IMG/VR virus record: IMGVR_UViG_3300030109_001727
Coordinates: 1 to 28,390 of that record
Source: a virus
Strand: one strand, 5' to 3'
DNA length: 28,390 nucleotides
Position numbers and translations under genes: made by a program. Shown in pieces: positions 4,401 to 27,165 of the stretch; position 1 is the stretch's first letter, and each line of letters opens with the position of its first letter. Under the pieces are notes generated by a model. That model saw nothing but the letters and a program-made list of their open reading frames with translations. It was not told where the DNA came from and did not search any database.

Positions 4401-7400
4401 CCCATGACACAGATGGCGGAAGTCCTGATGCAGTATTTACTCTTGAAGAGGTTCTTCGACTCAGAGGTGGAAGTTCTGATTCCGACAGCAATCTTGCATA
4501 CAATCTTGCATACATCAATGGTAGGCTTGGAGTAGGCACTTCGGCTCCCTCAACGCCAGTTCATATCAGAACCACTACTACTTCTCTAGACAATGTTTTA
4601 TTGTTGGAAAACAACGGAGGTAGTGGGTCGCCCGGTGTAGGAATCAAGATGTTCTCCAATGTGGGAACAGCAAACTACCTTGAGATTTTGCATGACGCTT
4701 TCGGCCATACCAACTTCAAGACTGTAAACGGTTCATCGACATACAGTCAGCAATTGTATCTGCAAAATGACGGGAAGGTTTCGTTTGGAACGGGTAATGT
4801 GGGAATAGGCACTACGAGTCCCGATACTCCCCTCCATGTTGCAGGGTCAAGTCATAAGATGCTGACGCTTGAAAGACAAGTGGATAACGAGGGTTATTGG
4901 GCGGGCATTGAGTTTCAACTAGGAGATGATAATTCAACAACGGCAGGTCACATCTATGGTATCATTGGTGGTGCAATAGAAGACCACACTAACGGTGCAG
5001 AAGACGGATTCCTAACATTCCAAACATCGCTTGCGGGAACAACTGCTGAGAAGATGAGAATTACATCTGCCGGCCAACTTCTAGTCGGGAAGACAGCATC
5101 AGTAGCAAGCGAAACTAGGAAACTAGAGGTTGAAGGTAGCATAGCCGCCGCAAGTGGTGGTACAGGTGGAGTAGGATTCCACATGAAGAACTCCGAAGGG
5201 GAGTTCCTGATGTACACCGATGGCGGGGATATGCTTATCAAGGACTACGCAGGTTCAGACACATACCCATTCAAGATAGTAGGTGCGGCTGAGACTGATA
5301 CTTTAAAAATAATGACAGGGGGAGATGTTCGCGTCAAAGATAGACTTGGGGTAGGAACAGATAGCCCCTCTACAAAATTAGAAGTCGTTGGAGACATAAC
5401 CGCAGAGAGGTTAAATCTTCTCAAAAGTAGTGGCTATGCTAGTATAGAGATGGGTGGCCCATCGGGTGCTTTCATAGACTTTAAGAATGATATTACTACC
5501 CCCGATGATTTTGATGCTAGGATAATCACAGACGGAACAGGGTTGGATATTGTCACTAGCGGTTCTAATCATATTACCCTAAAAACAAATGGTTCGCAGA
5601 GGCTTAAGGTGGAAGATGCTACAATTACAATGTACCCATCAACTCTTCAATTTACTACTACAGGTGCGCCTACGATAAAAGGCGGAAACCATAATCCGCT
5701 AACGATTTACGGTAATCAAGATGGAACCCCTACTTCAACATCTAGCAACGTAGTCACACGTTCAACTGCGGCGGCACTAGACTTCGATGTAAACTCAAGT
5801 CAGCAATTGGCTATGAGAATTAAGGACAACAAGGATGTAGATGTGTATGGTGTTTTGAGTGGGCCGGGAGTAGCAAGAGGGGGCTACGGTGCTAACTCGT
5901 TCCATTTTGGTGCGACAGGAAGCACAGAGGATGACGATTGGTATGAGGTATTCCGATGGACTCCTAACGCTACGATGAGCGCAACCACTTCAAACCAATA
6001 CAGAAACTTTGCCGCAAGATTCCAAGTCGTAGGAAGAGGTCTTCAAAGAATAAACTTCGATATGTATGTCCGTGGTGAGTATGGGGTTCAAGGCGACTCA
6101 GGTTGGTGGGCTAGGGAGTTCATCATAGACGGTCTTTCCCAAAGCACAGACGCAGATGGGAACGCTTCGCCCGATGGAGACTCTATCTTCAAGATGGTCT
6201 ACAACGCTGGCAATAGTTTGAGTATGCCCTATGCAAGCCTGTATATGAGAAGGGATGAGGATTGGGAGATAAGAACCTGCAACCTAGTATCCATGTTCAC
6301 CAATTGTGTCTTTGAGTTCAAAGACACCAACGTCGGAGAAACGACACCGACAAATGATACTCATACAGGCTCATATGATTTGTCTCCTTCAATCAGAAAG
6401 AAACTGAGAGTAGATGTGAACAACCAATTAATCAACGGTGTAGAACCAACTGGAATCTACTTTGATGAGTCAAACGATAGACTCGGAATAGGCACCGCAA
6501 GTCCCGCCGAACCACTACACGTTCTAGGAGCGGATAGCGGCCCAATTGCCAAGTTTGAGAGAGATGGGCAAGAGAGCGTGTTTATCAGTGGAAACAATGG
6601 GTGGGGCAATCTATACACAAGCGATGCCGTTCTTGCTTTTGGTACAGGAGGGAGTTCGGGTGCTAATTCTCAAATGATATTGAGTAGTAATGCTTTAATT
6701 ATAGGAGATGGTGATGCTACTGCCGTGACTGATGGTGCTAAACTACACGTTCACGATACAGACGGCTATTCCCTTATTCAAGCAACGGGTACGGGTTCGG
6801 ATTGGATTAATGCTGGGTTGCTATTGACTCAGAGACAAACAGGTTCGCAATATCGAGGTCTTGGTGTATTCATGCACGATGAAACGCATGACACAGAATG
6901 GTTCGCTGGTAGGGCTTATAATAGTGAAGACGAATACATCATAGCCTATGATAGTGCGGCTTCCTCTCACTATAACAAATTAGCCTCTTCTGACCCTAAT
7001 AATATAGATAGCGGTGCTACTAACCTATTAGTTATGGACACATGGGGTAGAATGTATAGCGATTATGGGGGCTATGTAGATGGGAATATGATTTCTTCTA
7101 ACTCTTGGTACCCCATGTCTGACTTGAGTACGCTACCGCGTGGTTTTATCATCAATGGAGCGGCTGATGAAAACTCGATAGTCTGGGGAGAAACACCGCT
7201 TGGTTTTGGGGATGACTTCGGAAGAGGTTTATTGTGGAGATGCCAAGATAACGGAAGTGGGAGTGCGAGTGGGGGATTCTTGAATGCAAACCCTCAACCT
7301 AGAATAGACCCAGAAAAAACTTATCGGCTATCTGTTTGGGTAAAGAGAAGCCACTTAACCGAAGGTGCTTACTATTTGGGTGCATACGGTCTATCTAATG

Positions 7401-9025
7401 CAACAGGTTCTAATCAAGGTCTTCAAGACCCATCGAAGAGAGGTACACTAAATGGTAACTCTAGTGCTGGTTCAACTACGCTAGACCTTAACTCCGATGA
7501 GAGTATGCCCGACCCCGGTGGTGCAACTCGCTATGCAGTAATTAATAACGAAGATACAATCACATATACTGGTAAAAGTGGCGACCAACTAACGGGTATT
7601 CCATCTAGTGGTACTTACGCAATAGACAAGGTACACGGTTCGGGCGCGGTTGTCCAGTACGTTGAGCAAAATGCTTACTTTAAATCTGGTGATTTACCAG
7701 AAGTAGATAAGTGGTATCTAGTCGTAGGCTACATACGCGGTAAGGGAGATACAGGAGACTTTACGGACAGGAGTGCGGTATATGACGGCGAGACAGGAAT
7801 GAAAGTCGGTGAGGGCGGAGACTTTATGTGGATGCCTACTAACACTCACGGTAAGTTTAGAGTCTATATGTTTTACAGTGACGATAACCCAGAGCAGATA
7901 CAACATATGTTTGACCCACGATTTGAAGAGTTAAGTTCAGCACCTTCTCTCGCTCAATACTTCCCCCTTAGAGCAGATGGCTTAACTTCTCAACAACAAG
8001 TTTACATTAAGGAACAGGCTTCTGCGAAAACCGATACTGCCGGTTATGGGCAACTATGGGTCAAAAACTCGGCACCTAACGAATTGTATTTCACTGATGA
8101 TGCAGGTACGGATATCCCCATAAGCAGTATTCCAAATGGTGCAAACAACCGCGTACTCACGGCAACCGGCGCAAGCGGGATGAACGCCGAAGCCAACATG
8201 ACCTTCGATGGTTCTGACCTCATAGTGGACAATGGTGCAACTGCTAGGGTAAGAGCGCAAGGTACTAGCAACTACGCTTCAACCATAGTCGCCTATTCGG
8301 GTGGCGCATATCTAGCGATGGGTGATATGGATTCCAATGAAACGACATTTTTGCAAATGGGAGCGTATGGTGGTATCAATAACTTTGACACCAAAACAAG
8401 AGACTTCCACCTATACGGGACAAACACAACCACAGGATTCTATTTCGATGAGTCGGCAGGGAAGTTTGGAATAGGTGACACTACACCTTCCTACAAACTA
8501 GATGTAAATGGTGACATAAGAGCGCAAGACGATATTTATACTGACAAACTCATAGCAAGTCAAGGTATTAGGTCTAGTAGCAGAGCCTCTTTTAACACCA
8601 TGCAGATGTACTACTACGACAGGCAAAGCATGGGTACGGATGCGGTTTATCTTCGTGTGCCTGTTGGTGGCTCATCAAGTGCCAATCCGGGTTTTTATGC
8701 GATGCCTCATGCGGGTCAAGTTATGCAAGTTATGTTTGGTTTCTATGGACAGACTCTCGCTACTAGCGGTACTGACACATGGACAATACATAAGATTAAT
8801 ACTGGTGGAACTACGGCATCAGTAAATATGGATATAAATTTCGCTAATCTTAACAGAATCGGTACTACAAACAATTACAATATATTAGTGGATGTATCAG
8901 TATTAAGTGATGCAAGTAATCTAAATTTCGCGGTAGGTGATATACTACAAATACAGAGGACTGATGGTAGCCCCATTGACATAGAAAACGTTAATGCACA
9001 GTTATGGGTAGTGTTTGACATATAG
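1433..9025 (+). CDS. Giant 2530-residue receptor-binding fibre
   Basis: The start is ATG with GGTGAT three bases upstream. The N-terminus (TWNGDVNTEFANAANW, then a PVSGDTVVF turn) resembles autotransporter/adhesin beta-helix openings. Residues ~725-803 are a low-complexity Gly/Asn/Thr shaft (GNVTGNVTGNVSG). Six GIGT/GVGT-x-SP-type motifs (GIGTTSP, GVGTSAP, GVGTDSP, GIGTASP, GIGDTTP) at residues ~900, 1032, 1124, 1305, 1684 and 2345, each followed by LHV/LEV/LDV, are the repeats typical of large phage tail fibres. Residues ~1893-2110 look like a carbohydrate-binding jelly roll (YRLSVWVKR) interrupted by a small beta-module. The C-terminus ends in a compact beta domain; no S74 self-cleaving chaperone motif is seen. 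It would bind the host surface. Its site between head and neck genes is unusual, so a head fibre is also possible. Confidence 0.88.
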   Translation: MATRTWNGDVNTEFANAANWSSNTAPVSGDTVVFDSSADANAVLVDLRPSSGQFAEVIIENNFDQLLSFEHATAQIKTNKLTIKAKGKIKDTTGGKITFVGGGTSGVFVFFNHADMASGPLGMFDTTLSRTRMFFDFSGVTAGTAIKLENGVYPNILLTGTGNNSTFSPTAVTAAGTNTYPTTDILTFQTDSDTSIIPATKNQADLGKIFRIHGGIYAQCADFNWGNTTLEIQPQDASGSKVPYNGAYFASGNFRFGTTGKIFKAKYNHLRIASNTGKYFELDSGAILSCNKLTILPNARFYGPDTTVNKGAEIQTIEQPTIQGDWNFAQIAEGIYRSRSNPPPYQEYHSILANNLGSNGQVLAIASDGSLEWSSSAGGGGVTVENAGNALSTTATILDFTGNGVTASGSGAEKTIAISNTNQLTEFTLAGDSGSSQTIAHGNTLTIAGGTNISSVASATDTITLNVDDAFIKNDANDTTSGTITAAGFTTTDGPVSFKRDNNSAVTMVVEQDGDGDIATFKGASDELLTIRRTGSIKFNLSTAGGSATENIISYRDTGGDERTLLSVDAGTIVLHNRGPDGDVEIRGNTSTAGASGETTIAKFEDTAINLYKNVVVGGNLTVSGTTTTLSSTTVATGDSMLSLATGQTTEGADAIDIGLYGTYNVDDGDAGSSTGIQKWAGLFRDANDSGKFKLFKDVQAEPTTTVNTSATGYTVASLVANLEGNVTGNVTGNVSGSAGSATGNAATATALETARAINGVNFDGTAAITVPAAGSTLTDTVTVAKGGTGATSLTNNAILTGAGTSAITAESTFTYVTGVLEMNVGSDGSNDAANMVLDGHVTSSTNTVSEILVKNKGDSITRILTGRDSSDTAGFLTFSTQPSGGSITERMRITSAGNIGIGTTSPTFPLHLTYTDDDTGPEGGHASGASGTIGTSAEGGGLYIENESTQDGSYAGITFRTDTADARIAWQSVGSSLVNEGQMSFYLDTHDTDGGSPDAVFTLEEVLRLRGGSSDSDSNLAYNLAYINGRLGVGTSAPSTPVHIRTTTTSLDNVLLLENNGGSGSPGVGIKMFSNVGTANYLEILHDAFGHTNFKTVNGSSTYSQQLYLQNDGKVSFGTGNVGIGTTSPDTPLHVAGSSHKMLTLERQVDNEGYWAGIEFQLGDDNSTTAGHIYGIIGGAIEDHTNGAEDGFLTFQTSLAGTTAEKMRITSAGQLLVGKTASVASETRKLEVEGSIAAASGGTGGVGFHMKNSEGEFLMYTDGGDMLIKDYAGSDTYPFKIVGAAETDTLKIMTGGDVRVKDRLGVGTDSPSTKLEVVGDITAERLNLLKSSGYASIEMGGPSGAFIDFKNDITTPDDFDARIITDGTGLDIVTSGSNHITLKTNGSQRLKVEDATITMYPSTLQFTTTGAPTIKGGNHNPLTIYGNQDGTPTSTSSNVVTRSTAAALDFDVNSSQQLAMRIKDNKDVDVYGVLSGPGVARGGYGANSFHFGATGSTEDDDWYEVFRWTPNATMSATTSNQYRNFAARFQVVGRGLQRINFDMYVRGEYGVQGDSGWWAREFIIDGLSQSTDADGNASPDGDSIFKMVYNAGNSLSMPYASLYMRRDEDWEIRTCNLVSMFTNCVFEFKDTNVGETTPTNDTHTGSYDLSPSIRKKLRVDVNNQLINGVEPTGIYFDESNDRLGIGTASPAEPLHVLGADSGPIAKFERDGQESVFISGNNGWGNLYTSDAVLAFGTGGSSGANSQMILSSNALIIGDGDATAVTDGAKLHVHDTDGYSLIQATGTGSDWINAGLLLTQRQTGSQYRGLGVFMHDETHDTEWFAGRAYNSEDEYIIAYDSAASSHYNKLASSDPNNIDSGATNLLVMDTWGRMYSDYGGYVDGNMISSNSWYPMSDLSTLPRGFIINGAADENSIVWGETPLGFGDDFGRGLLWRCQDNGSGSASGGFLNANPQPRIDPEKTYRLSVWVKRSHLTEGAYYLGAYGLSNATGSNQGLQDPSKRGTLNGNSSAGSTTLDLNSDESMPDPGGATRYAVINNEDTITYTGKSGDQLTGIPSSGTYAIDKVHGSGAVVQYVEQNAYFKSGDLPEVDKWYLVVGYIRGKGDTGDFTDRSAVYDGETGMKVGEGGDFMWMPTNTHGKFRVYMFYSDDNPEQIQHMFDPRFEELSSAPSLAQYFPLRADGLTSQQQVYIKEQASAKTDTAGYGQLWVKNSAPNELYFTDDAGTDIPISSIPNGANNRVLTATGASGMNAEANMTFDGSDLIVDNGATARVRAQGTSNYASTIVAYSGGAYLAMGDMDSNETTFLQMGAYGGINNFDTKTRDFHLYGTNTTTGFYFDESAGKFGIGDTTPSYKLDVNGDIRAQDDIYTDKLIASQGIRSSSRASFNTMQMYYYDRQSMGTDAVYLRVPVGGSSSANPGFYAMPHAGQVMQVMFGFYGQTLATSGTDTWTIHKINTGGTTASVNMDINFANLNRIGTTNNYNILVDVSVLSDASNLNFAVGDILQIQRTDGSPIDIENVNAQLWVVFDI

Positions 9026-12615: not shown

Positions 12616-14307
12616 ATGGCAGGAGCAGAATGGTTAAATAGATATGTTTCATTAGAAAAAGAAGCAGCAGGTAGTTACGGTACAGAACCGTCAGGAACGC
12701 AGGTGTTTGGAGAAGTTGACGATGAGTCTTTTAAGGCTACGTTCGACCTTCTAGTTAGGTCAGACATGGCAAGGCAGGTTGCATCGAAGGCAGTTACAAA
12801 CACTCGATACACTGAGGGTTCAATAAACCTAGCAGTGCAGCCCGATGACTTTATGGGCAACATTCTTTCTTCCTTCTTTACCAAGAGGGTTCACTCAGCC
12901 TTTTACGACGATATTACTTTTGCTAATAGAGGTTTCGGATACACCGCAGGTACAGGAGCAATTACTGATGACGGCGGCGGTGACGGAGTTGACAAGATTG
13001 GCTACTGGCAGATTCGCAACGGAGAGCAAGGAAGGTTGGGAGCGCAGTTGGATGCAAGCACTACTTCCACTTTCGTGACAAACGGTACAGGTGAAATAGT
13101 ATTGGAGTCGGTAACAGCCTACTCCGCAGGAGATACAACCGGGTGGGGAGTTCATAACGGACAACAGGTGACTGCATCATACCCCGGATACGGTATTATA
13201 GGAAATGGTGCTGGTGGTAACGGTGGAGGATACTTTAAGTACACAGGTATTAACGCTGGTGCTAATAAACTAACCGGAGTCACTACTTATGCAACAGATA
13301 GTACCTTTACGACCGCCGCAGTTTTAGGTTCTGCTATTGCAGACAACACAACAGTTATCGCTTATGAAAACTACTACAACGGTATTGAACCCGGTAGAGT
13401 GTACGGATACATTACTATCGCCGGTAGTGGCAAAAGCCAAGTTTCACTACATGTAGCAAACGACTTCTTTGGTCTTGCCGCGCTATTAGATGCAGGTGAT
13501 GACACAGGTGGGCAAGTAATCACGACGCCATTAGCAACAATTGGTGGCTCTAAGAAGCACATCTTTGAAGAGCCAACCCTTTCGACTGAAACTTACCCAT
13601 CCTATACTATTAGGGTTGGCAGGGAGTCTAAAGAACACACCTTTACAGGTATGACTTCTACAAGGCTTTCTCTTAGCGCAAACCTAAACGAGTATGTAAT
13701 GGCTTCCGTGGACTTCTTAGGGCAAGCAGAAGCGGCACCAAGCGATATTCAGACTTCGTTCTCTTATTCCGGGAATGAGGTTGACGCACTACACTTTGCA
13801 GAGGCCGAGTTATTCATTGATGGTTCACCAAACAAGTCCACTAAGATTAGGTCGGTGTCCCTTGAAATAAACATCAACCGTGACCTTGATTCTGCTTACG
13901 CAGTAGGTTCTAACACTATTACTCGTATGCCACCATCAAGGACTAGGGAGATTACCGGAACGATGGAGTTCAACGAGATTCTTTATGACGACGCTACCGA
14001 TGCTAAGGGAGAGCCTTCTTACCAAGACTTGGCTACTGCGACAGAGGTTCACAAGATACACCGAGGACAGGGTACACCCGCTCTTAAGTTGAAGTTTACG
14101 GGTGCAGGTACTCTAGCCACAACTGAGTTCTTAGAGATTGACCTTTACAACATCAGGTTCGAGGCACCCACGGCTTCCGTGAGCGGTCGTGACCCAGCAC
14201 GAATGACTGTTGGTTTCCAAGCCTTCTATGACTCAAAGGCTACGGGTGCTGCCAAGGCAATCACCGTAAAGATGAAGGGTAGCAATCTACAAACTAGCGA
14301 CTATTGA
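12616..14307 (+). CDS. Major tail tube protein with inserted beta domain
   Basis: 563 residues. The N-terminus (LNRYVSLEKEAAGSYGTEPSG), followed by DESFKATFDLLVRSDMARQVA and an EGSINLAVQPDDFMGNIL helix-loop, and the C-terminal half (SLEININRDLDSAYAVGSN, then RTREITGTMEFNEILYDD) resemble siphovirus tail tube proteins, including the familiar 'SL-I-N--D ... R-ITG---F' pattern. Family members are usually 150-350 residues; the extra length is a Gly-rich beta region at ~100-260, including FKYTGINAGANKLTGVT, which resembles modules in the adaptor and fibre. It probably decorates the outside of the tube. Context agrees: terminator before it, chaperones and tape measure after it. TATA-like and GAGGT signals precede it. 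Confidence 0.75.
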   Translation: MAGAEWLNRYVSLEKEAAGSYGTEPSGTQVFGEVDDESFKATFDLLVRSDMARQVASKAVTNTRYTEGSINLAVQPDDFMGNILSSFFTKRVHSAFYDDITFANRGFGYTAGTGAITDDGGGDGVDKIGYWQIRNGEQGRLGAQLDASTTSTFVTNGTGEIVLESVTAYSAGDTTGWGVHNGQQVTASYPGYGIIGNGAGGNGGGYFKYTGINAGANKLTGVTTYATDSTFTTAAVLGSAIADNTTVIAYENYYNGIEPGRVYGYITIAGSGKSQVSLHVANDFFGLAALLDAGDDTGGQVITTPLATIGGSKKHIFEEPTLSTETYPSYTIRVGRESKEHTFTGMTSTRLSLSANLNEYVMASVDFLGQAEAAPSDIQTSFSYSGNEVDALHFAEAELFIDGSPNKSTKIRSVSLEININRDLDSAYAVGSNTITRMPPSRTREITGTMEFNEILYDDATDAKGEPSYQDLATATEVHKIHRGQGTPALKLKFTGAGTLATTEFLEIDLYNIRFEAPTASVSGRDPARMTVGFQAFYDSKATGAAKAITVKMKGSNLQTSDY

Positions 14308-14724: not shown

Positions 14725-14886
14725 ATGTCAAGGGCTGGCGCATCCAAAACCTTTATGAACTCACTAGGTACATGGGAACTCAAGCAAGACGGTACAATCC
14801 GTCTATTGAGAGAAGCAAAACAACCAACACAGGTTAAAGAGAGAAGGAAGTGGAGAAAAAATGCCGGTCAAGAAAAAAGAGTTTGA
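14725..14886 (+). CDS. Small basic hypothetical protein
   Basis: A 53-residue frame with ATG 14725 and a TGA at 14884-14886. It is strongly basic, especially at the end (KERRKWRKNAGQEKRV), and has one tryptophan-containing start region (FMNSLGTWELKQDGTIRLL). The last 26 bases overlap the start of the next gene in a different frame, typical of this genome. The ribosome site (GTGGG, nine bases before) is weak. Without it, 151 bases between supported genes would be empty, which would be unusual here. Function unknown. Confidence 0.55.
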   Translation: MSRAGASKTFMNSLGTWELKQDGTIRLLREAKQPTQVKERRKWRKNAGQEKRV

Positions 14887-15211
14887 GTTAGACGATGGAA
14901 GCAAAATTTGGGTGCGACAAGCATCTGGTATAGAGAAACTAAAGATTAGCAATATGCAAGCAAAGGTCTTTAGGCAGTTTGCAAATAAAGGCGAACCTGC
15001 GGATTGGGACGACGAAACAAACCTGTCTTTTAGCGACGCTCTTGATGAGGCCGGCGCAGGACTACAGGCTCAGATAGACCAATGGCTAGTTCCTTGTGTT
15101 ATTGACGATTCTTTTGATGTAAATCTATTTACAGTAGATGAGTTACTACCTATTCTTGCATTCGTCCGTGGTGACGATGAGGAAGGTGCAGTTAATTTTT
15201 TGAGTTCGTGA
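14861..15211 (+). CDS. Tail assembly chaperone, first frame (lambda gpG-like)
   Basis: 116 residues. The start is ATG with GTGGAG upstream. The protein opens with a beta strand (KEFELDDGSKIWVRQASGIE), then helices (KISNMQAKVFRQFAN) and ends with a long helix and hydrophobic patch (FTVDELLPILAFVRG). In tailed phages the gene between the tail tube and the tape measure encodes a small chaperone that coats the tape measure during tail assembly; this one has the right size and position. Near its end a U UUU UUG heptamer (15196-15202), read as UUU then UUG, allows a slip into the next frame. The product after slipping would be 211 residues: 114 from this frame plus 97 from the following one. Confidence 0.72.
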   Translation: MPVKKKEFELDDGSKIWVRQASGIEKLKISNMQAKVFRQFANKGEPADWDDETNLSFSDALDEAGAGLQAQIDQWLVPCVIDDSFDVNLFTVDELLPILAFVRGDDEEGAVNFLSS

Positions 15212-15226
15212 GGGTTGCACCCTCAC
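15196..15226 (+). promoter_or_regulatory. Programmed -1 frameshift signal between the two tail chaperone frames
   Basis: A TTTTTTG heptamer at 15196-15202 is in the exact X-XXY-YYZ phase of the first frame (AAT-TTT-TTG). A 5-base spacer follows, then a perfect 8-bp hairpin: GTGAGGGT (15208-15215), loop TGC, ACCCTCAC (15219-15226). This is the standard layout of a -1 signal, and the overlapping frame is the one a -1 shift would enter. The hairpin also covers the GTG that would otherwise start the second frame, so separate initiation may be weak. Confidence 0.8.
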
Positions 15227-15495
15227 TGTGCATGGCCTTCAAAGGCACAACTCCTTCTGAATTGTGGTTAAAATACAATCAAGAAGGCGGCAGGCATCTA
15301 ATGGAATTAGATATGCACATTGCTATAGAAATCAATGACCGGATTGCAGAGGCTACAAGTAAAGCCTCTAAGACTAAAGCCGGCGCAGGAGGCATCCCTA
15401 CGTTGACGGGTGACGACGCTAAAGACGTAGTGGCTAGAAGAAACGCTAGGCGCGAAGCGAGAAAGAAACAGCAAGAAGATTTATCAGACACTTAG
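15208..15495 (+). CDS. Tail assembly chaperone second frame (lambda gpT-like extension)
   Basis: 95 residues if started at GTG 15208; more probably read as the -1 extension of the previous gene, joined at codon GAG 15202 after slippage. It contains SELWLKYNQEGGRHLMELDMHIAIEIND, a helical region, then an Ala/Lys-rich linker and a basic terminal helix (DVVARRNARREARKKQQED). Lambda gpGT-type fusions combine a chaperone with a second domain that contacts tape measure and tube; position just before the tape measure gene agrees. A separate start is possible because GTG overlaps the stop of the first frame (GTGA), but the start lies in the hairpin stem. Confidence 0.7.
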   Translation: MRVAPSLCMAFKGTTPSELWLKYNQEGGRHLMELDMHIAIEINDRIAEATSKASKTKAGAGGIPTLTGDDAKDVVARRNARREARKKQQEDLSDT

Positions 15496-15547: not shown

Positions 15548-18500
15548 TTGATAATTGAGACTGGTTTTGCACTAAACGGTCCTTGGGGTCTTCTTGCTTT
15601 GATGGCTATGGCGGTTGCCATGCTTGTCAATCGAGCGGGCGCGTCAATGGTCTTCTTCGACGTGGTAGGTCGTTTCCAAGCAGAGCGACTAATTAAAGAT
15701 GCAGATACCTCTATGACAGTGTTTAACGCTGTTATGCTAGATTCGTTTGCTAATATCCAAGATTCACTAAACGTCATCGGTACGTCTTTTGAAGGTCTTG
15801 TAAATGAAGTTCTACCGCTGACAGAAGCCATCGCAGACGCAGAAATAGAGTTGGAAAAGTTCTTGCTTGAGGCTGACCAAATAGATGAAATTTCACAAGA
15901 AATAATGGATATGGGTATAGCGTTTGGATTTAGCGGAGACCAAGCATTGAGCGCCTCTGCCAAGATGGCGCAGTTGGCTTCTGTGCTAGGGCCGGGTATG
16001 ACTCCTACGGGAACCGAGTTAGGTCTACAGTTTGGTCTAATTAGCGGTATGGAAACCGAAGCCGCAATGCAGCGACTCATCAACCTAAATCAGCAACTTT
16101 TCTTTATGACAGAAGGAACAGAAAATCTAAATAGCGTAGCAGAAAAGAGAAATAAAATTACTCAAAATACTATAGCGGTTATGGACAAACTTAACACGAT
16201 TGAGAATCGGTCGGCTTCTACGATGGAGCAAATTACATTCGTGATGAATCAATTCGCATCACAGGCACATCTTACCGGCGAAAGCCTAGAAATGATGGCA
16301 GCACAATCCGCTGTTCTTATTGAGACAGGTGAGGAGCAAGGTAAGGCTGGTCGTGCGCTTAGGATGATTTATGCGCGTTTGGGCGCAGACACTAACGGGG
16401 CAAGAAGAGAACTAGAAGCGCTAAATATAGCCGTCGAAGATTCTAACGGAAACCTAAGACCTCTTTCAGAAGTGCTTGGTGATTTGAGTCATCAGTGGTC
16501 GGGATTAGAGGCATCAGAAAGACAGGCTGTAGCACAAAGCGTGGCCGGAAACAGACACTACACAAGATTTATCAAACTGATGAATAACTATGATAGGGCA
16601 GTTCAGTTAGCAACTGAGGCTAACGAAGGATTGTTTCCTGCTATGGAAGAGGTAAACAAAAGACTTGAGGCAGACATTACCCAATTTAGAGCAGCAGAAG
16701 CAGCACTAAGTAATTATCGCGCAGAACTAGGTGACGCTCTTTTACCTGCACTAACAGACGTAACTGAAAAGCAAGCCACATTTACTAAGTTTTTGGCTGA
16801 TGCTGTAGCAATACTAGGAGATAATCGTTTTGGTAATGCCCTCTTGATGGTGGGGTTAGGAATTAAATCTATGGTAGTCCCGATGATGGGCGTAATTACT
16901 AACATAGCCGCTATGACTGTTGCCATGCAGACAAATAGAGCAGTAACAAGGGCTATGGCAGGCGAGCAACTAATGTTAGAAGAAGCGTTTGGTAGAGGTG
17001 CGTTACAACAATTGAGAAATGCAGACTCTCTAAGACAAGTAAATCAGATAGGGCAAGCCGCAATAGCCATGCAGGATGCTCAAATGGTGACTCTAAAGAA
17101 ACTGACACGCGCGAAGGAAGAAGACCTACTAATTGACATTCAAGCAATGAGTTTTATAAACCAAAAAGAGCAAGCAGAAATACGCGCTTTGCAAGGTACA
17201 ATACGACGCACTTCATTGGACAAATCAATGAAGGAAACAGAGATGATGGGCTTAGCCAAAACTAGCAACAAGTACAAAGCGTTAGAAAAAGAAGTGAAAG
17301 CACTAGACCAGACTCTTGCTAAACACCGTGATACTTTAGAGGGGCTACAACTAGCAAATGATAAAACCGCTGCTTCGGTAGACAGAATGGCTAGAGCATA
17401 CGGTGGAAGTAGAGTACAAAAAGGAAAAGAGGAAAATGACAAAATAGAAGAGGAAAACAAACTACGGGCGCAGCAAGCCAAGGAATTGTACGCAGTTGGT
17501 GGGGCGGCTTTAGCGCTTGGGTCGGCGTTTACTTTACTGTTTAAAGATGAAAGATTAGTTAGGCTTGGCATGTCTTTGCAAATAGTAGGAACTGGTATTT
17601 TAACAGCAAAACAACTAGCGTTGGCTGCAAGCACTCTGATTAAGTCCGCCGCAGAAGCAAAGGGCATAACGGTTAAAAAGCAGACTAACCGTGAATTATT
17701 AGCAGAGATATTTGGTCTTGGACAGAACACAAGAGCGCAAGCAATAAATACAGCAGCCGTAAATACAAATACTGCGGCAAAGAGAGCAAATGCCGCTGCA
17801 ACCTCTGCTGCCGCTGGCGCTTCGGCTGGCGGTGCTGCGGCCACCGGCGCCGCCGCTGGCTCTGCTGCCGGGCCTTTTGGTATGCTTGCCGGTGCTGTAA
17901 TAGCAACCGGAATTGCCTTTATCGCATTAAGCGCATCTGCTAAGAAGGCTAAAACTGACATAGATGATTTTAGTTCCGTAGATGGCGTATTAGACACAGG
18001 TACGATACAGATGGAGGCATTTACGGAAGCAGTGTTAGATACTAGCAAATCCCTAGACGACTTAGCACTAGATGCATATAATGCTGAACAGGCAGTTATA
18101 TCACTAGAAGGTGCTACGCTTGATGCGGCAGAAGGTGAGATGAGTGGGCGCAAAGATGCAGAAAAAACCGCACAGCAAGCATACTTAGGCAGAATTGCAC
18201 AATCGGCTAATATGCGAGATAATTTAGAAGCGGACATACAAGCCATTTTAGATGCACAAAAAGATTTAGATAGGCCCGCAGACCCATTTGCAGGTGTTGG
18301 TTCGGGTATAAGTTTAGTAAACCCTGCTAACGAAAGAAATTTAATAGATGACGCAGAAGCGTTAATTGCGGAAGAAGAACATTTAATCGAATTAATAGAA
18401 TCACTAGGAGTAGAGGGCGTAGATGCCATTGTAAAGGCTATTAGAGCAAACGCTACATTTGTAAATCAATTAGAGAAAGACTCGTTGGATGCTACTACGT

Positions 18501-18784
18501 CCATTGCAGGAGTCATGGAAACTGCTACACAGTCACTAACAGAATTTAACAATGCAAGAGAAGAGTTGTTCTTCGGTATGGCTGCATCCAATGTGACGGG
18601 TGATTTGGTAAGACAGGTAGTCAACCGAGGGGTCGAGCATCTGCTAGTCAATACAGAAGTCGTAATGACAAATAACTTCAACGGGATGACTACAGAACAG
18701 GCAGCACAAGAAATACTAGACCATGTAGAGAGAGGTGCAAGGATGAGAGGAGTGGATATGTCTACGGTAAGCCAAAGCATATAG
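15548..18784 (+). CDS. Tail tape measure protein (1078 residues)
   Basis: The longest helical protein here, sitting after the chaperone pair. It sets tail length and is packed inside the tail tube before being ejected with the DNA. The start is taken as TTG 15548, the first in-frame start after the TAA at 15521; ATG 15602 is the alternative. Residues ~10-30 are hydrophobic (GLLALMAMAVAMLV). Residues ~120-405 match the TP901-type tape measure core (ASAKMAQLASVLG, GRALRMIYARLG, DLSHQWSGLEASERQAVAQ, AGNRHYTRFIKLM). Then come long coiled coils, an Ala/Gly-rich membrane-like region (~736-798) and an acidic helical end. The only oddity is the non-ATG start. Confidence 0.92.
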   Translation: MIIETGFALNGPWGLLALMAMAVAMLVNRAGASMVFFDVVGRFQAERLIKDADTSMTVFNAVMLDSFANIQDSLNVIGTSFEGLVNEVLPLTEAIADAEIELEKFLLEADQIDEISQEIMDMGIAFGFSGDQALSASAKMAQLASVLGPGMTPTGTELGLQFGLISGMETEAAMQRLINLNQQLFFMTEGTENLNSVAEKRNKITQNTIAVMDKLNTIENRSASTMEQITFVMNQFASQAHLTGESLEMMAAQSAVLIETGEEQGKAGRALRMIYARLGADTNGARRELEALNIAVEDSNGNLRPLSEVLGDLSHQWSGLEASERQAVAQSVAGNRHYTRFIKLMNNYDRAVQLATEANEGLFPAMEEVNKRLEADITQFRAAEAALSNYRAELGDALLPALTDVTEKQATFTKFLADAVAILGDNRFGNALLMVGLGIKSMVVPMMGVITNIAAMTVAMQTNRAVTRAMAGEQLMLEEAFGRGALQQLRNADSLRQVNQIGQAAIAMQDAQMVTLKKLTRAKEEDLLIDIQAMSFINQKEQAEIRALQGTIRRTSLDKSMKETEMMGLAKTSNKYKALEKEVKALDQTLAKHRDTLEGLQLANDKTAASVDRMARAYGGSRVQKGKEENDKIEEENKLRAQQAKELYAVGGAALALGSAFTLLFKDERLVRLGMSLQIVGTGILTAKQLALAASTLIKSAAEAKGITVKKQTNRELLAEIFGLGQNTRAQAINTAAVNTNTAAKRANAAATSAAAGASAGGAAATGAAAGSAAGPFGMLAGAVIATGIAFIALSASAKKAKTDIDDFSSVDGVLDTGTIQMEAFTEAVLDTSKSLDDLALDAYNAEQAVISLEGATLDAAEGEMSGRKDAEKTAQQAYLGRIAQSANMRDNLEADIQAILDAQKDLDRPADPFAGVGSGISLVNPANERNLIDDAEALIAEEEHLIELIESLGVEGVDAIVKAIRANATFVNQLEKDSLDATTSIAGVMETATQSLTEFNNAREELFFGMAASNVTGDLVRQVVNRGVEHLLVNTEVVMTNNFNGMTTEQAAQEILDHVERGARMRGVDMSTVSQSI

Positions 18785-18796
18785 AGAGAGATAATT

Positions 18797-21700
18797 ATGG
18801 TAAGAGCATGCACAGACAACTATTCGTTTTGGCTTACAGGCTACTACGATGACTTTATAAACGCAAGAGCGATTGCAGACGACTTAAACACACCAAGCAC
18901 ATCAGTTGTGTATTCCTCTCTTAAGAGTCATCATGGTAACCCACTGAACGGAGAGGCAACCTCAAATCCCCGATACAGGTGGTCTGTTGTTGACAGGGAA
19001 AACTACTCTACTGTTTTGGATTCTATTGCCGGAGTAACTATGGGCGAATTGTCCAAACTAAGAAATGCGGGCATGTTCGAATGGCTTACCCACGATACTA
19101 TCAGAAACGGCGCAGACAATTGGGTAGGTAGAGCGCAACTACAGTACCCTAACGGCTTTGCTCCTAACCGATTTAAGTTCGGTGACGGCACTAGCAACAC
19201 CAACTACAAAGACACCGGCATCTCTAGCGGCAGGGGTTATCAATTAATTACAAACGGTTATGACAGCAACGGAACATATATGCTTAACGCAGGGGATGAG
19301 GATGCGTCATTTAGAAGAAGCGCTATGGAGCCATACCATACAAAAACAGATGGGTCTACTGATAACATTACCAGCACTGAGTATGTTAATAAATTAGCAG
19401 GCAAATTTAATAGTTGGTACACTAGTTCTGAACCCGGCAGAAGAATACAGACGGCGCATATTACAGGCGTGTGGACAGGAGAATGTTTGAGTTACGCTAC
19501 GGGCAACGCAACAAACGTCACACCAGAGAATCTATTTCATACGGTAAAATCGCCGGGAGGTAAACCTTTCTTGGTAATAAAAAAGGTTGCGGAAGCCAAT
19601 GGTGCTGAACCTTCTTTGGTATATGACGGAGACTTAAAGGCCCGATTAGACAACGATGTGTTTCATGCTAGAATAGCCGCAAGGTGCTTCCATGGCGATA
19701 CCGCGCAAGCAAATACTATTAGGGGTTCGTCTTTTAGTAACGGAGAATATCCGATGTCGGTTGATTTTCAAATAGGTTTTCCTACAAGTAGTGCGGGTGT
19801 GACTGATACTACAGGTCTAGCAGGAACGCCGGCTATACAGTTTAAACTAATCCTAGGAACTACAAGCGGAACAGGCGGCCTATCAGGTAACTATGTTCAT
19901 TACCCATCTTATGATTGCCTAGGCGCAAGTTACATCGGCGCTTCTGCACAAACCTACAGCAACGATGACGCATGGATTGATGTTGATATTAGAATAGATT
20001 TTACTAATCAAAAATTCTACCCTTATGTTGATGGTACTAGAGTTGGAACATCTTCGGGTTATTCTTTGAATAATACTTCGTTTGGGGGCAGCGTTTCTGC
20101 TTCTGCAATGTATGGTTATGAACTGTATCAAGCCCCCGAAGTCAACGGAGCAACTAGTACCGCAGTAGGAGTAAGTTACTTAATGCTTGATAGAGTAGGG
20201 ATTGTGAGATACTTAACATCCCCTTTGACAAACAAAGATAGACATGCAGAGACACCTATTTCTAACTTGCGTCTGAGTTCTTCAAACGAAGGGTATTCTG
20301 TAGTTAATTTAGAAATAAAAGATGATAAAGATGATGGGGTCGCAGGAACAAGTTCTAGTAATTACACTTACAATTTTAAAAATCTTTTTTCAAACACCGA
20401 CCCCGTTGACTGTGGACTGCTTATTTTTGGTTCGGTAAACGAGCAAAGCGTAGACCGGCCTATATGGAGAGGTATTGTTGACAATATGGATATTAATCAA
20501 GCAACATCAACACGAAGCATTAAATTGCAGGTAACACATAACGCGATTGGATTGTCAAAACAAATCCCTATGTGGGATATTGGACAATTAGCCGCAGGTA
20601 ACGATGAGGACAACTCAAACCCCTATTGGTCAGGTGAGACAGAAGGCATGAAAAGCATTATGAAAATGGGTACTAGACCTTTAAAAATGCTAAGTAATAA
20701 ATTAGGATTTGGTAAGGCCAACGCTTTCCAAGAAAATAAAAATCAAAGGTTGCAACTTGGTTCTGGTATGCCCATACAGATGTACAATAATCACGATGCG
20801 AACGAAGGACCAAACAGCGCAGAAGAAAACTATGACGGTTCTGGTATTGTAGGAATAACACAATTTCTTTATGACGGTTCTGGTAACCCGGTGCAATCAG
20901 TGTCTTCTGGTGGTAGTATTAAAACTGCTGTCAATCTACCTTCCACTACTACTCTTACAGACAGCGACACTATGACTATAATAAACACCACAAATCATAA
21001 TGCTACAAGTAAAGGTATTTTTGACGTATATAACTCAGGCAATGCATTTAGGGGTGTGGGTCAAGTTGTTGGGCTAGACAGCCATACTTATACATCCGAA
21101 AGCGCTAAAATTATCTACATAGGTCAACACATTCCTACTAATGTAGACGACTCATACGCTCTATGGTCTGCCATTTATAGTACAGCGTTTGCCGAGGCTA
21201 TGTATCAAGATTTCTTAGAGGATTATCCAAATACAAATATGCCTACAAGTAATTTTACAGTAATTATGTTTGATGCTGACCCCGGTTTGCAAGCAGGTGA
21301 TAAATTTACTATAAACATGCTAAATATAGACCAAGATAAAACTAATACTACGTTTGCTGCAAGCAGCAACGCAAGCCCTTTGCCTGCTGCATATATGGGA
21401 ACACATACTGTTTCTTCTGCTAATACTGCTAAAGATATTTACACTACTAGTAGGGTGGGAACAACGTTTGGCAGCACTCCTAGTATTCATTACGTTATAA
21501 CAGAAACGCCGGTTGTGACTTGGCGAGAGGATAGATATGGGGATGTCACTACTACAGGAAGCACACTAAGTGGGGGTAAGAGGTACCCTTGGTGTAAGGA
21601 CTCTGGGCAGTATGTAGATACCTCTTCTGATGTAGGCAAGGCTTTGTACAGACCGCTTCACGCTCGCTGGATGCGGGACTTACCGCAATCTCTGTGGTTT

Positions 21701-24700
21701 AAATATCATTTCGGTGTTATAGATTATGACCCACTAGGCGCTGATGCTAACTCAGATATTACAGGAGGTTACAACCCAAATGATATTAGTGTGAGAACTA
21801 CCACAACAGCCGGAAACGTTATTGCTTCAATCACTAAAGGAGATACATCCGTACAAATCTCACAACTTTTATACGACTCGCTCGTAGCAAAACAGGCGTG
21901 GGCTGGTGTAGCAGAAATTAGAGCAGAAGGGTTTTGGACTGCTGGCGTGGGTTTGGGTGAGGATGCGGGCACGCAGACAAATAAAAGAGGTAAATTTATT
22001 TGGCAGGATTTATACACGAACGGCGGTAATTACTACATGATAGGTTGTAAGTACATTGATGCTTCTTTTAGTATTGGTACCGGAACTAAAAACAGAGTCG
22101 GTACAAATACGGCATACAAAAATGTAGTATTTATTTTACCATTAAACTTTTCTAATAATTACAATCATCTATGGCTTCTTTGGGCTGATATGAGAATAGA
22201 TGGAAACGCAAACGCAGATGGTGGAGATAGAAAAACCAAGTTTGGTTTAATTTCTCCTACGCCGGAAAACTACAAAATCAATCTACGGTATTTAGATAAG
22301 TTGACAACAGACGGAACACCAGATTCTTTTACAGAACTTAAGGTGAACGATGATGTGACGATGTGGGACATCAGTGCTACAGACCCATGCACTAACGCCG
22401 GATTCTCTAAACCGGCAAACTACGGCGTAGGTACATCTTCTACCGCTTTGGATAGTGTAGCGCTGTCTGCAAACTCAGGCAACATAGGTAGTCACGGTGT
22501 TGCTAAATTACTTGTTACAAAAAACGGCCACAGTATTACGTCTGACTACGTGCATTTATTTAATACAAATAGCCATGATGGAATACACAAAGTCCTCAAC
22601 AACGCAACAAACACCTTAGTTTTAGATACAAAGTATTTAGGAACTGATACTGGTGGTACTGGTGGTACAAGACTAGTACCTGTCAATGAGGCTGACAAGG
22701 AAAGATACCAAGATTGGGAAGATAAAGGCGGTGCTATGTGCATCATTGATGCCTCTCCTTTCTTTAATCTTAATACGGGCGCTAATCAAGGTGGCGTATA
22801 TCAGGTAGGCGGAGGTACAACAGACCTTAGTGACTATTCTGTAAAGTCCACAGGATTCCCTGCTCTGATAGATAACTATTGGGCGGAAGTAGTAACCTCA
22901 GACAACAACAAAGCATCCACTCAAAGTTCTCACCCTAACGCATACAAAATTATTAGTGATATAACAGCGATGAAAACAAGCGCGGTGGCAGGTCAAAGTC
23001 ATATAGAAGTAGATAATTTAGAAATTTTTGCTGATAGCGGCACAGGTAGAATTATAGTAGAAGAAGAAGTAAGTGGCTCTAACGAAAAACAGCCAGCATT
23101 TCACTACTTTAAATGGGCTTGTAAAAATTTAACAGAAAGAACCGGAAGCGCAATGACTAGTGTGGCTAGTGGCGGCCCTGATTTCTATGGTCGTTATAAT
23201 CACGTACTTACTTTAACTGGTACTGATTGGGAGGATTTAGGAATAAGGCCCGGCATGGGAATTTACAATGTTACAAAGGAACAATGGCACACAGTCATGG
23301 CAGTTGGTGAAGGGGGTGACACTAAGTTGGAAGTGGATAGAGGTAGAACGGCTTCACTAGCAGACGCAGGTTATCTTTGGGACGCAAGCGATGATTGGCG
23401 AATACCTGTGCAATTAGGCGGTATTTGGAGTATGTATGTAGAAGTGTCTAACAACGCAAACCCAAATCAAACTATGATGGAAATCAACGATGCCTTTGAA
23501 GAAGATACTCATTTTGGCCTGCGTCGTGGTTTTAGTATAAAAGATGCGCCGGATGAAACGACGGACGATTATGACTATGAGGTAGCGACAGTCAGTACAA
23601 CTATTTATACTGCTAGTCAGAATATTACAAGACTTGTAATGCACGTAGAAGGAGATATAGAAGCGACCAACATAGGTACATTCTACGATAGTGAAAAAAT
23701 AAGAACGATGTGGAACGCAGGACTAACTAAAACATGGTCGCCTCCAACAAGATTAACTTCTTTTTATGATATTAATAACGTACCTCTTACCACAATAATG
23801 ACTAGTGATGGTACTGCCAACAGCAGTGATACCTATGGGGGTATAGTACAGGTCGGGAGTAAGCCACTGGTAAACGCATTAAGAGATATAAAAGCGGGTT
23901 CTGGTTTCGGTACTACCAATGGCTCTCACACTACTTTTTCTTGGCTTGCTGGGCGCGACGGTAGAATAGATTTTAGACCTAAATTTAACAGCGGTATTGC
24001 ATTTGACAGAGACAATATGCTTATAAACAATGTTAAGACTACAGTTTCGGGTAACGTAACAAATGTGAGAATTTATTACAACAGCAACAAAGACTTTGTA
24101 GACCATCCAAGTGCGGGCACAGGGTCTACTACGAATTGGAAAGTCTTAGAATACCCAAAGATTTACAACAGAAAAGAGGCAGAAAGATTAGCACAAAAAG
24201 AATACAATTCTAGCAGGAAGACTAACGCCATTCTAACTGTCGAGCCAAACGCACCAAGTTATACAGAAGACAGCACGACAACTTTAGTTTCGAGTCATTT
24301 GCTACAGAGCGGTCGCTATGGGTATATCGCTGACCCTTATATTGCGTTGCAAGGTAAAGCCGACACGTCTGTAAAGCCCACTAGTTGGACTAGGTTGGGT
24401 ACAGGAGGCTCTATGTTTACAGGCATGAGTAATGCTTTTGACGGTAATCTAGGTACGAACGGAACTCTTGCACAGAGGTGGGGCAAGTCAGCAGGACAAG
24501 CAAACACGTCCGCAAGCGATGTTACTTGGGCTAACAATTTCTATTGGTACGGCTCTGCTTCTGTCAGTCATGCACTACAGGTAGTACACGTACCAAACCA
24601 TTGTCCACTTGTTAGCGAGGAAACAGGAGAAGAGTTGAGAATCTTTGTCACTCCCGCCGAAAACCAAACTCTTGCGGATTACCCGTCTGTGGATAACATC

Positions 24701-26134
24701 AAATTTAACATATGGTTGGTAGATTACGAGTACAGTAACGACAGAATCAAAGCCGCTAATATCTCCGGCACAGGTGGAACGCATAGCCTAAACAACGCAG
24801 ACAGATACAGTAGAACTATTGTAAAAGATAACGGTTTCTATGAACTCACTATCCCTAAATCCTATTGGAATAACGGTGGCTCTGCGTTTAGCCCATCCCG
24901 TAAAATGATTATTTCTTTCAATGCTGACTATTGTAGAGACTTGATACGACATAGATGCGGAGACCCTGCGAGCGCCAACATTTACAAGAGCGCAAACACT
25001 CTTCCGGGTATCGTAGCGGGCACATCTTCGGGCAACATCACTACAGGAAACACCGATTCTATCTTCCCTCTAGGTGGCAGAATGTATGATGAGTGGTACA
25101 TGTTCCACGGCTCAGGCTCAAGAGCCATTTGGAATGGTCCTAGGATTCATGTGGTTAGAGATATGTCCTACATTCCAGCATCGTTCGTAAAACTTACGGA
25201 TGCTGGTTTAGGTTACAACGACCAAACTTTTGTCATAAAAAGTCTTGATTGGGACATCGAGGCTGGCGGGCGTGACAAGTTAAATTTGACGCTTGCGTTA
25301 GATGAATCTCTAAGGGCAGATAACCTAGCCTCTTTCTTGCCCTCTAACACTGTATTTACTCCGACATTTAATCCACCTGCTGCTTCTCCTCCCTCTATAC
25401 CTCCACCCTCAATCACACCGGGAGTAGAATCTCCTCCTCTCTCTCTTGGGCCTCCCGCAGGGCAGGGTTTGACGGGCTGGGCTAGTGGTGCCTTTTCATC
25501 GAGTAGTGGTATCAACAACTCATCAACCGGCTTGTTTAACAGAATGAGAGGTAGGATGAACGACAGACTAAACGACATAGGAAGCGGAGAGACTAGGGTG
25601 TTAGGGGGAGACAGAGCGAGCGTGACACCGCAAAACACTACTACACATACGCCCAACACTGTTGTAAATGTCTCAGGAGGAAACGCCGTAAATACCGCTG
25701 CTGGTTACACTTTCCCCGGCGTTGGCAACGTAGAGGATACCAACAGCCCATACTTCTCTAGTGCCTTCATGCAGACGCTTACCATCCCTGCTAACGTAAC
25801 CTCTGATACGTTGGTAGTAGTAGCCAACGTCACACATATGGCCGCGAGCGGTAACGCTGTTATTACGGCAAAAATAACTAACGCCGGAACGGAATATACA
25901 CAATCTACGTTGATAAATGCAGCCGTAGCAAATCAGCAAATAACGCTATTTAACGGAAGAGTCAGTGGTGCAGATGTTGCGGGTACAATCATAGATTTAG
26001 AGTTGAGTAGAGTTGCAGGAAGTGGGCAGGATAACTCATCATACAACTCTGTAAACATCACTAATGTTGGTCTAAAACAATCTCAGACATCTGTAGATAC
26101 AAACTCCCCGACAAGTCAATTATCAGGAGTTTAG
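18797..26134 (+). CDS. Giant tail tip/baseplate hub protein with lectin-like domain
   Basis: 2445 residues starting 12 bases after the tape measure gene; gene order (tape measure, then hub) is that of siphovirus tail tips. Residues ~289-478 resemble a LamG/ConA lectin domain (WIDVDIRIDFTNQKFYPYVD, a typical jelly-roll signature). Residues ~490-600 (NLRLSSSNEGYSVVNLEIKD, then RPIWRGIVDN) and ~1758-1808 (RKEAERLAQKEYNSSR) look like gp27/late control D-type hub domains, closing with YNDQTFVIKSLDWDIEAGG at ~2140. A Pro-rich hinge (~2183-2223) leads to a separate C-terminal beta domain (~2285-2430), perhaps for host contact. No peptidase or glycosidase motif was seen. Domain calls are from patterns; the hub role is well supported by position. 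Confidence 0.8.
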   Translation: MVRACTDNYSFWLTGYYDDFINARAIADDLNTPSTSVVYSSLKSHHGNPLNGEATSNPRYRWSVVDRENYSTVLDSIAGVTMGELSKLRNAGMFEWLTHDTIRNGADNWVGRAQLQYPNGFAPNRFKFGDGTSNTNYKDTGISSGRGYQLITNGYDSNGTYMLNAGDEDASFRRSAMEPYHTKTDGSTDNITSTEYVNKLAGKFNSWYTSSEPGRRIQTAHITGVWTGECLSYATGNATNVTPENLFHTVKSPGGKPFLVIKKVAEANGAEPSLVYDGDLKARLDNDVFHARIAARCFHGDTAQANTIRGSSFSNGEYPMSVDFQIGFPTSSAGVTDTTGLAGTPAIQFKLILGTTSGTGGLSGNYVHYPSYDCLGASYIGASAQTYSNDDAWIDVDIRIDFTNQKFYPYVDGTRVGTSSGYSLNNTSFGGSVSASAMYGYELYQAPEVNGATSTAVGVSYLMLDRVGIVRYLTSPLTNKDRHAETPISNLRLSSSNEGYSVVNLEIKDDKDDGVAGTSSSNYTYNFKNLFSNTDPVDCGLLIFGSVNEQSVDRPIWRGIVDNMDINQATSTRSIKLQVTHNAIGLSKQIPMWDIGQLAAGNDEDNSNPYWSGETEGMKSIMKMGTRPLKMLSNKLGFGKANAFQENKNQRLQLGSGMPIQMYNNHDANEGPNSAEENYDGSGIVGITQFLYDGSGNPVQSVSSGGSIKTAVNLPSTTTLTDSDTMTIINTTNHNATSKGIFDVYNSGNAFRGVGQVVGLDSHTYTSESAKIIYIGQHIPTNVDDSYALWSAIYSTAFAEAMYQDFLEDYPNTNMPTSNFTVIMFDADPGLQAGDKFTINMLNIDQDKTNTTFAASSNASPLPAAYMGTHTVSSANTAKDIYTTSRVGTTFGSTPSIHYVITETPVVTWREDRYGDVTTTGSTLSGGKRYPWCKDSGQYVDTSSDVGKALYRPLHARWMRDLPQSLWFKYHFGVIDYDPLGADANSDITGGYNPNDISVRTTTTAGNVIASITKGDTSVQISQLLYDSLVAKQAWAGVAEIRAEGFWTAGVGLGEDAGTQTNKRGKFIWQDLYTNGGNYYMIGCKYIDASFSIGTGTKNRVGTNTAYKNVVFILPLNFSNNYNHLWLLWADMRIDGNANADGGDRKTKFGLISPTPENYKINLRYLDKLTTDGTPDSFTELKVNDDVTMWDISATDPCTNAGFSKPANYGVGTSSTALDSVALSANSGNIGSHGVAKLLVTKNGHSITSDYVHLFNTNSHDGIHKVLNNATNTLVLDTKYLGTDTGGTGGTRLVPVNEADKERYQDWEDKGGAMCIIDASPFFNLNTGANQGGVYQVGGGTTDLSDYSVKSTGFPALIDNYWAEVVTSDNNKASTQSSHPNAYKIISDITAMKTSAVAGQSHIEVDNLEIFADSGTGRIIVEEEVSGSNEKQPAFHYFKWACKNLTERTGSAMTSVASGGPDFYGRYNHVLTLTGTDWEDLGIRPGMGIYNVTKEQWHTVMAVGEGGDTKLEVDRGRTASLADAGYLWDASDDWRIPVQLGGIWSMYVEVSNNANPNQTMMEINDAFEEDTHFGLRRGFSIKDAPDETTDDYDYEVATVSTTIYTASQNITRLVMHVEGDIEATNIGTFYDSEKIRTMWNAGLTKTWSPPTRLTSFYDINNVPLTTIMTSDGTANSSDTYGGIVQVGSKPLVNALRDIKAGSGFGTTNGSHTTFSWLAGRDGRIDFRPKFNSGIAFDRDNMLINNVKTTVSGNVTNVRIYYNSNKDFVDHPSAGTGSTTNWKVLEYPKIYNRKEAERLAQKEYNSSRKTNAILTVEPNAPSYTEDSTTTLVSSHLLQSGRYGYIADPYIALQGKADTSVKPTSWTRLGTGGSMFTGMSNAFDGNLGTNGTLAQRWGKSAGQANTSASDVTWANNFYWYGSASVSHALQVVHVPNHCPLVSEETGEELRIFVTPAENQTLADYPSVDNIKFNIWLVDYEYSNDRIKAANISGTGGTHSLNNADRYSRTIVKDNGFYELTIPKSYWNNGGSAFSPSRKMIISFNADYCRDLIRHRCGDPASANIYKSANTLPGIVAGTSSGNITTGNTDSIFPLGGRMYDEWYMFHGSGSRAIWNGPRIHVVRDMSYIPASFVKLTDAGLGYNDQTFVIKSLDWDIEAGGRDKLNLTLALDESLRADNLASFLPSNTVFTPTFNPPAASPPSIPPPSITPGVESPPLSLGPPAGQGLTGWASGAFSSSSGINNSSTGLFNRMRGRMNDRLNDIGSGETRVLGGDRASVTPQNTTTHTPNTVVNVSGGNAVNTAAGYTFPGVGNVEDTNSPYFSSAFMQTLTIPANVTSDTLVVVANVTHMAASGNAVITAKITNAGTEYTQSTLINAAVANQQITLFNGRVSGADVAGTIIDLELSRVAGSGQDNSSYNSVNITNVGLKQSQTSVDTNSPTSQLSGV

Positions 26135-26889: not shown

Positions 26890-27165
26890 TTATTCTGCTA
26901 GAACGGGAGAGTCTCCTTCGGCCAACGGGGCATCGGCGGCCTCAGTTTCGTTTTTCTCAATCCAATCTATTTCAGAATCGGGAACGTCATCTTCGTAATA
27001 TATTGCATCTACAGGACACTCAGACACACAGGCATTACAGTCTATGCAGTCATCGGGGTCTATTACTAAGTAAGTATCCATCTCCCTAAAAGCGTCAACA
27101 GGACAAACAGATACGCAGTCCTGATACTTGTGGTTTACACAAGCCGAGGTAACTACATATGTCAT
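26890..27165 (-). CDS. Ferredoxin, seven-cysteine [3Fe-4S][4Fe-4S] type (FdxA-like)
   Basis: 91 residues from ATG 27165; ATG 27174 would add three residues, but the ATGA overlap with the upstream stop favours the shorter form. Seven cysteines follow the FdxA-type plan: C9-x7-C17-x3-C21-P and C40-x2-C43-x2-C46-x3-C50-P. By analogy with Azotobacter ferredoxin I, C9/C17/C50 would hold a [3Fe-4S] cluster and C21/C40/C43/C46 a [4Fe-4S] cluster; position 12, a cysteine in FdI, is His here. An acidic C-terminal tail (~55-91) may set partner choice. It carries one electron at a time between redox enzymes. Partner unknown; it could serve host-derived metabolism or an Fe-S protein of the virus. Confidence 0.9.

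Follow-up and report, generated by a model that had tools for sequence, protein, structure and literature searches.

Predicted -1 frameshifting between two putative tail assembly chaperone frames in a family of uncultured, probably archaeal viruses

The window analyzed here is the whole 28,390-nucleotide stretch of DNA presented above, positions 1 to 28,390 of the IMG/VR virus record IMGVR_UViG_3300030109_001727. It carries two overlapping reading frames, ORF1 and ORF2, between the genes of the tail tube and the tape measure proteins, which is where a pair of tail assembly chaperone frames normally sits. The features of the locus are:

12616 to 14307, + strand: major tail tube protein gene (Pfam Phage_tube_2, E 9.4e-12).
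14861 to 15211, + strand: ORF1, putative gpG-like tail assembly chaperone frame, 116 amino acids; kept in 92 of 92 distinct pairs; predicted fold with pLDDT 90 and a weak match to HK97 2OB9.
15180 to 15188, + strand: Shine-Dalgarno-like stretch AGGAAGGTG, 7 nucleotides 5' of the heptamer; suggestive only as a possible stimulator.
15196 to 15202, + strand: putative slippery heptamer U_UUU_UUG, invariant in 11 clade members; C_CCU_UUN takes its place in other clades.
15203 to 15207, + strand: spacer AGTTC, 5 nucleotides, of constant length in the window clade.
15208 to 15226, + strand: hairpin with an 8-bp stem and a 3-nucleotide loop, probable stimulatory structure; stem near-invariant in the clade, loop-facing bases variable.
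15202 to 15495, + strand: -1 frame extension, gpT-like, 97 residues after the slip; conserved as protein directly past the slip site.
15548 to 18784, + strand: tail tape measure protein gene (Pfam PhageMin_Tail, E 2.1e-17; NCBIfam tape_meas_TP901 above the cut-off; PHROGs tape measure).

ORF1 ends in AAT TTT TTG AGT TCG TGA, and T_TTT_TTG at 15196-15202 is read in its frame. In -1, an open frame extends from 15196 to 15495, and joining the two frames by a -1 shift would give a protein of 211 amino acids. Across the spacer stands the stem GTGAGGGT/ACCCTCAC, closed by the loop TGC. The initial annotation had described this heptamer as in exact frame, the spacer as 5 bases long, the 8-bp hairpin as perfect with a 3-base loop, and the downstream frame as open in -1 up to 15495, and each of these statements was borne out. 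The string TTTTTTG occurs at three sites on both strands of the window where 6.5 would be expected, which is below chance. For the window, a sequencing artefact was rejected, as identical elements are found in 11 sequences from different contigs.

Neither ORF1 nor ORF2 matched any family, chaperone families included, at a meaningful score in Pfam or PHROGs, and no relatives of ORF1, ORF2 or the tube protein were found among GenBank phage records. An AlphaFold2 model of ORF1 gave as its first PDB match the HK97 tail assembly chaperone 2OB9, a weak one (Foldseek E 0.29; VIA-align Z 4.6 over 81 residues at 4.1 A), and a viral structure library returned several tail assembly chaperones at low scores. 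The predicted fold is suggestive of a tail assembly chaperone, not proof of one. The model of ORF2, moderately confident at a pLDDT of 75, had no useful structural match. Elsewhere in the window, two very large ORFs of 2530 and 2445 amino acids (1433-9025 and 18797-26134) had no useful Pfam match and presumably encode tail fibre or tip proteins.

Scans of IMG/VR yielded 92 distinct ORF1-ORF2 sequence pairs, and in 91 of them ORF2 lies in the -1 frame relative to ORF1. A canonical in-frame heptamer is present inside the overlap in 79 of these 91: C_CCU_UUG in 37, C_CCU_UUA in 14, C_CCU_UUU in 17 (three of which overlap U_UUU_UUG) and U_UUU_UUG without C_CCU_UUU in 11. The remaining 12 pairs have N_CMU_UUU_C, that is N_CCU_UUU_C or N_CAU_UUU_C, at which re-pairing of UUU on U_UU is still possible. 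XXXYYYZ strings in frame occupy 89 of 1170 codon positions in the overlap versus 34 of 9265 elsewhere in ORF1 (a background of 0.37% per codon), and because of this concentration we regard the putative slip site as conserved throughout the whole family. We treat conservation as the deciding test of the signal, and its outcome is overwhelming. Its identity turns over between clades, with 16 changes on the tree, and the residues that flank the junction align gap-free across site types. The initial annotation proposed to check relatives for conservation of the heptamer: U_UUU_UUG is invariant within the 11-member clade, and other clades use C_CCU_UUN. At the end of ORF1 in L119, L121 and L159 there is an overlapping double slip site, CCCTTTTTTG, in which C_CCU_UUU is followed by an in-frame U_UUU_UUG; it is possibly an intermediate form.

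The six-T homopolymer of the window clade could in principle produce mRNAs of altered base count by transcriptional slippage, although a run of six T is short for that process. We consider this reading extremely improbable and reject it because most relatives, those with C_CCU_UUN, have only three or four T and arrive at the same product.

A second alternative is that there are two separate genes, with ORF2 starting independently at GTG 15208 or ATG 15232, perhaps coupled to ORF1 termination. The GTG opens the stem, the ORF2 frame includes a conserved ATG, and the overlap spans only a few codons, as in coupled genes. However, the ORF2 frame codes for F-x-x-V-A-P-S-L-C immediately past the slip site, followed by the conserved M-A-F-K-G (90 sequences), and the VAPSLC codons change freely at synonymous positions while the residues are held (Val as GTA, GTC, GTT or GTG and Leu with six codons, in the same 90 sequences). 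In 39 of the 90 there is no ATG, GTG or TTG upstream of the conserved Met, and a Shine-Dalgarno-like motif before the conserved ATG was found in none of them. Several other genes of the window do have such motifs: GGTGA(T), a Shine-Dalgarno form common in archaea, precedes 6 of the 13 gene starts checked (71, 984, 1433, 9034, 10166 and 10706). The window clade does have one GTG in the ORF2 frame, but without a good Shine-Dalgarno sequence. The initial annotation took the hiding of GTG 15208 by the hairpin as a hint that the fusion is the intended product, which is not supported: this GTG is kept only in the window clade and probably just represents the first bases of the stem. Across the family, the second frame is conserved as protein and shows no good start of its own. 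Because ORF2 is conserved upstream of its Met, with no start codon there in those 39 sequences and no Shine-Dalgarno-like motif in any of the 90, the simple two-gene reading is excluded, and an independent start, which would also leave the conserved in-frame heptamers unexplained, was rejected as very improbable. It is very likely, judging from the sequences, that a -1 frameshift of the gpG/gpGT type joins the two frames. The initial proposal of a lambda-like -1 slippage between two tail chaperone frames is thus supported by the -1 phase of 91 of 92 pairs, the 79 canonical heptamers and an ORF2 without a good start.

The energy of the hairpin alone is unexceptional (-13.6 kcal/mol over 45 nucleotides, z -1.5), but perfect 8-bp stems with loops of 3-8 nucleotides are rare, occurring at four sites in the 28 kb, where shuffled sequences give 0-7. 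The chance of such a stem starting no more than 9 nucleotides from a given heptamer is about 0.1%. Within the 11-sequence window clade the stem codons GTG AGG ... CCC TCA are invariant while the loop codons GTN GCN vary; departures within the stem are limited to one G-U pair and one lost innermost pair. The GTGA of the stem overlaps the ORF1 stop and is doubly constrained. CCC and TCA are free in both frames, and still they are invariant in 11 of 11 sequences, whereas elsewhere in ORF2 just 3 of 30 comparable codons are. Ser TCA at this stem site occurs 11 times in a tally of 90 sequences, which equals the member count of the window clade, all of whose members carry it; other clades mainly use AGC or TCT for that Ser. 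The clade (n = 11) has, at a spacing of 5 nucleotides, inside the range of 5-9 nucleotides past the heptamer, a stable structure with an invariant stem and a variable loop that appears to be under selection. Compensatory pairs, which the initial annotation proposed to look for among relatives, were absent, the window-clade stem being nearly invariant, and an Rfam search gave no match.

Most relatives have C_CCU_UUN without a conserved strong stem. The strong hairpin is specific to the window's 11-member clade, and the heptamer and hairpin that had been called a complete signal are so in those 11 sequences and not in most relatives. The Shine-Dalgarno-like stretch AGGAAGGTG has the strongest or near-strongest anti-Shine-Dalgarno pairing of ORF1 in the U_UUU_UUG clade (mean percentile 0.01); it also encodes a conserved E-E-G, and may act as a third stimulator of slippage. 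One could then suppose that the frames are joined as described with the hairpin incidental, slippage depending on the heptamer with or without this stretch. This reading would fit the clades that use C_CCU_UUN without a conserved strong stem, and also the rank of the stretch, which in the window clade comes first within ORF1. Against it, stem positions that neither frame constrains hardly change in the window clade, in contrast to the variable loop, and Ser TCA at the stem site is usual in this clade but not in others. We judge an incidental hairpin unlikely, with some chance of being right. Because CCC and TCA are invariant though free, and TCA is clade-wide here where other clades mainly have AGC or TCT, the strong stem has most likely originated together with U_UUU_UUG and is under selection at the RNA level. 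A loose long-range stem, AGUUCCU...AGGAAC, lies 60 nucleotides after the C_CCU_UUU site in L036, L046, L051 and their kin. One of its pairs exchanges G-C and A-U (3 of 11) and involves the ORF1 stop codon (TGA/TAA); the exchange is modest in comparison with shuffled sequences and is only a lead.

The explanation that we hold with strong confidence is one gene with two products, the chaperone and a fusion, made by a hairpin-assisted -1 slip. Most ribosomes would stop at 15209-15211 and release the 116-residue gpG-like chaperone. A minority, stalled at the GC-rich hairpin with Phe-UUU in the P site and Leu-UUG in the A site, would move back by one base, re-pair on UUU/UUU and read ...NFL-EFVRVAPSLCMAFKG... 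to 15495, giving the 211-residue gpGT-like fusion. On the lambda model, the N-terminal part would serve to bind the product of the tape measure gene just downstream, and the extension to bring in tail tube subunits; slip efficiency would set the ratio of the two products.

The sole exception among the 92 pairs is L008 (IMGVR_UViG_3300025110_000229, pair at L008:3001-3637), in which ORF2 lies in the +1 frame. Its ORF1 ends in GTA TCC TTT CGT TGA, with a putative +1 site UCC_UUU_CGU_UGA, and has neither the heptamer nor the hairpin. On the tree L008 is nested within the U_UUU_UUG clade (100/100 for 12 rows; 99/92 for the 8 rows that include the window), and its junction protein AVSFVEFLQVAPALCMAF aligns gap-free to AVNFLEFVRVAPSLCMAF. 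In the other long genes of L008, about 5000 codons, the codon pair TTT CGN is absent and CGT is seldom used. According to the passage of PMC7230728 that cites Firth et al. (2012), UCC_UUU_CGU is the +1 site of influenza A PA-X. With this state known from a single contig, there is a formal possibility that a zero-frame fusion was assembled with a one-base error. Because of the joint loss of all -1 elements and the exact +1 motif beside the stop, we lean towards a real switch of frameshift direction within the family, in which L008 would have lost the -1 elements and gained a PA-X-type +1 site while keeping the junction protein.

A frameshift in the tail chaperone genes is conserved in dsDNA phages, according to a passage on Xu, Hendrix and Duda (2004) in PMC7911831. 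The arrangement described here resembles lambda gpG/gpGT in its overlapping frames, which immediately precede the tape measure gene, its -1 slip (here predicted) at an in-frame heptamer, and its short and extended products. It differs from lambda in having no detectable sequence similarity, in its heptamers (U_UUU_UUG or C_CCU_UUN), in the strong hairpin of one clade and in being known from sequence alone. The initial annotation regarded programmed frameshifting as rarely described in archaeal viruses, a view contradicted by passages of PMC5009743, PMC7911831 and PMC7230728, in which both -1 and +1 sites have been published for haloarchaeal tailed viruses: -1 sites in HVTV-1, HCTV-1, -2 and -5 and Hardycor1 (G_GGA_AAT; PMC5009743, PMC7911831) and +1 sites in HSTV-2 and the HF1-group haloviruses (TTT-CGC; PMC5009743, PMC7230728). 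As far as these passages tell, all are predictions. The viruses with -1 sites share with ours the gene arrangement, the direction and archaeal hosts (here probable), whereas they have G/A-rich heptamers and known, isolated hosts and ours are metagenomic marine viruses. L008 has its +1 motif, TTT CGT, immediately ahead of the stop of ORF1, and this motif belongs to the TTT-CGC type of HSTV-2 and the HF1 group; +1 is the HF1 group's own state, while in L008 it is nested in a -1 clade with the same fusion protein. The tail chaperone frameshift is therefore of a kind already known, here with unusually strong comparative support, and the direction switch in the sister L008 is the most unusual point.

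The initial view of the virus as likely archaeal is supported as probable, and we would place the host among the archaea with good though not full confidence; Poseidoniales are the likely host, not proven. A family B DNA polymerase and an ERCC4 nuclease occur in almost all magroviruses of Poseidoniales (Marine Group II archaea; PMC10160649). The window encodes a Hef/XPF-like ERCC4 nuclease, as do 15 of 16 relatives. No PolB was found in the window fragment, and the combination is seen with relatives included: for the PolB of relative G001, the closest phage records are those of haloarchaeal tailed viruses (98% coverage, 23% identity). The likeness to magroviruses is one of gene content, with no direct sequence match to a named magrovirus, and frameshifting goes unmentioned in PMC10160649. 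No provirus match was found in genome contigs, no MCM or PCNA in the 16 relatives, and no tRNAs in the window or two relatives. Eight of the 16 relatives (G005-G012, e.g. L101:13472-14932, - strand) have a Cpn60-family chaperonin, the one examined being GroEL-type (group I), although in other respects these viruses have an archaeal look. At 26890-27174 (- strand) the window has an FdxA-type ferredoxin, possibly an auxiliary metabolic gene, with a proteobacterial FdxA model as best match. The GroEL-type chaperonin and the bacterial-type ferredoxin count against an archaeal host.

Some 90 naturally occurring versions of a single recoding site are available from this family of uncultured and probably archaeal viruses; the heptamer, the stem, the distance to the stop and even the direction of the shift vary among them and the product is conserved. 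If true, the switch in L008 would show that selection acts to keep the fusion product, the mechanism of recoding being replaceable. Without knowledge of the shift, the fusion protein is also overlooked when such virus genomes are annotated. This set of variants also opens the response of archaeal ribosomes to -1 and +1 signals, which is largely untested, to reporter tests.
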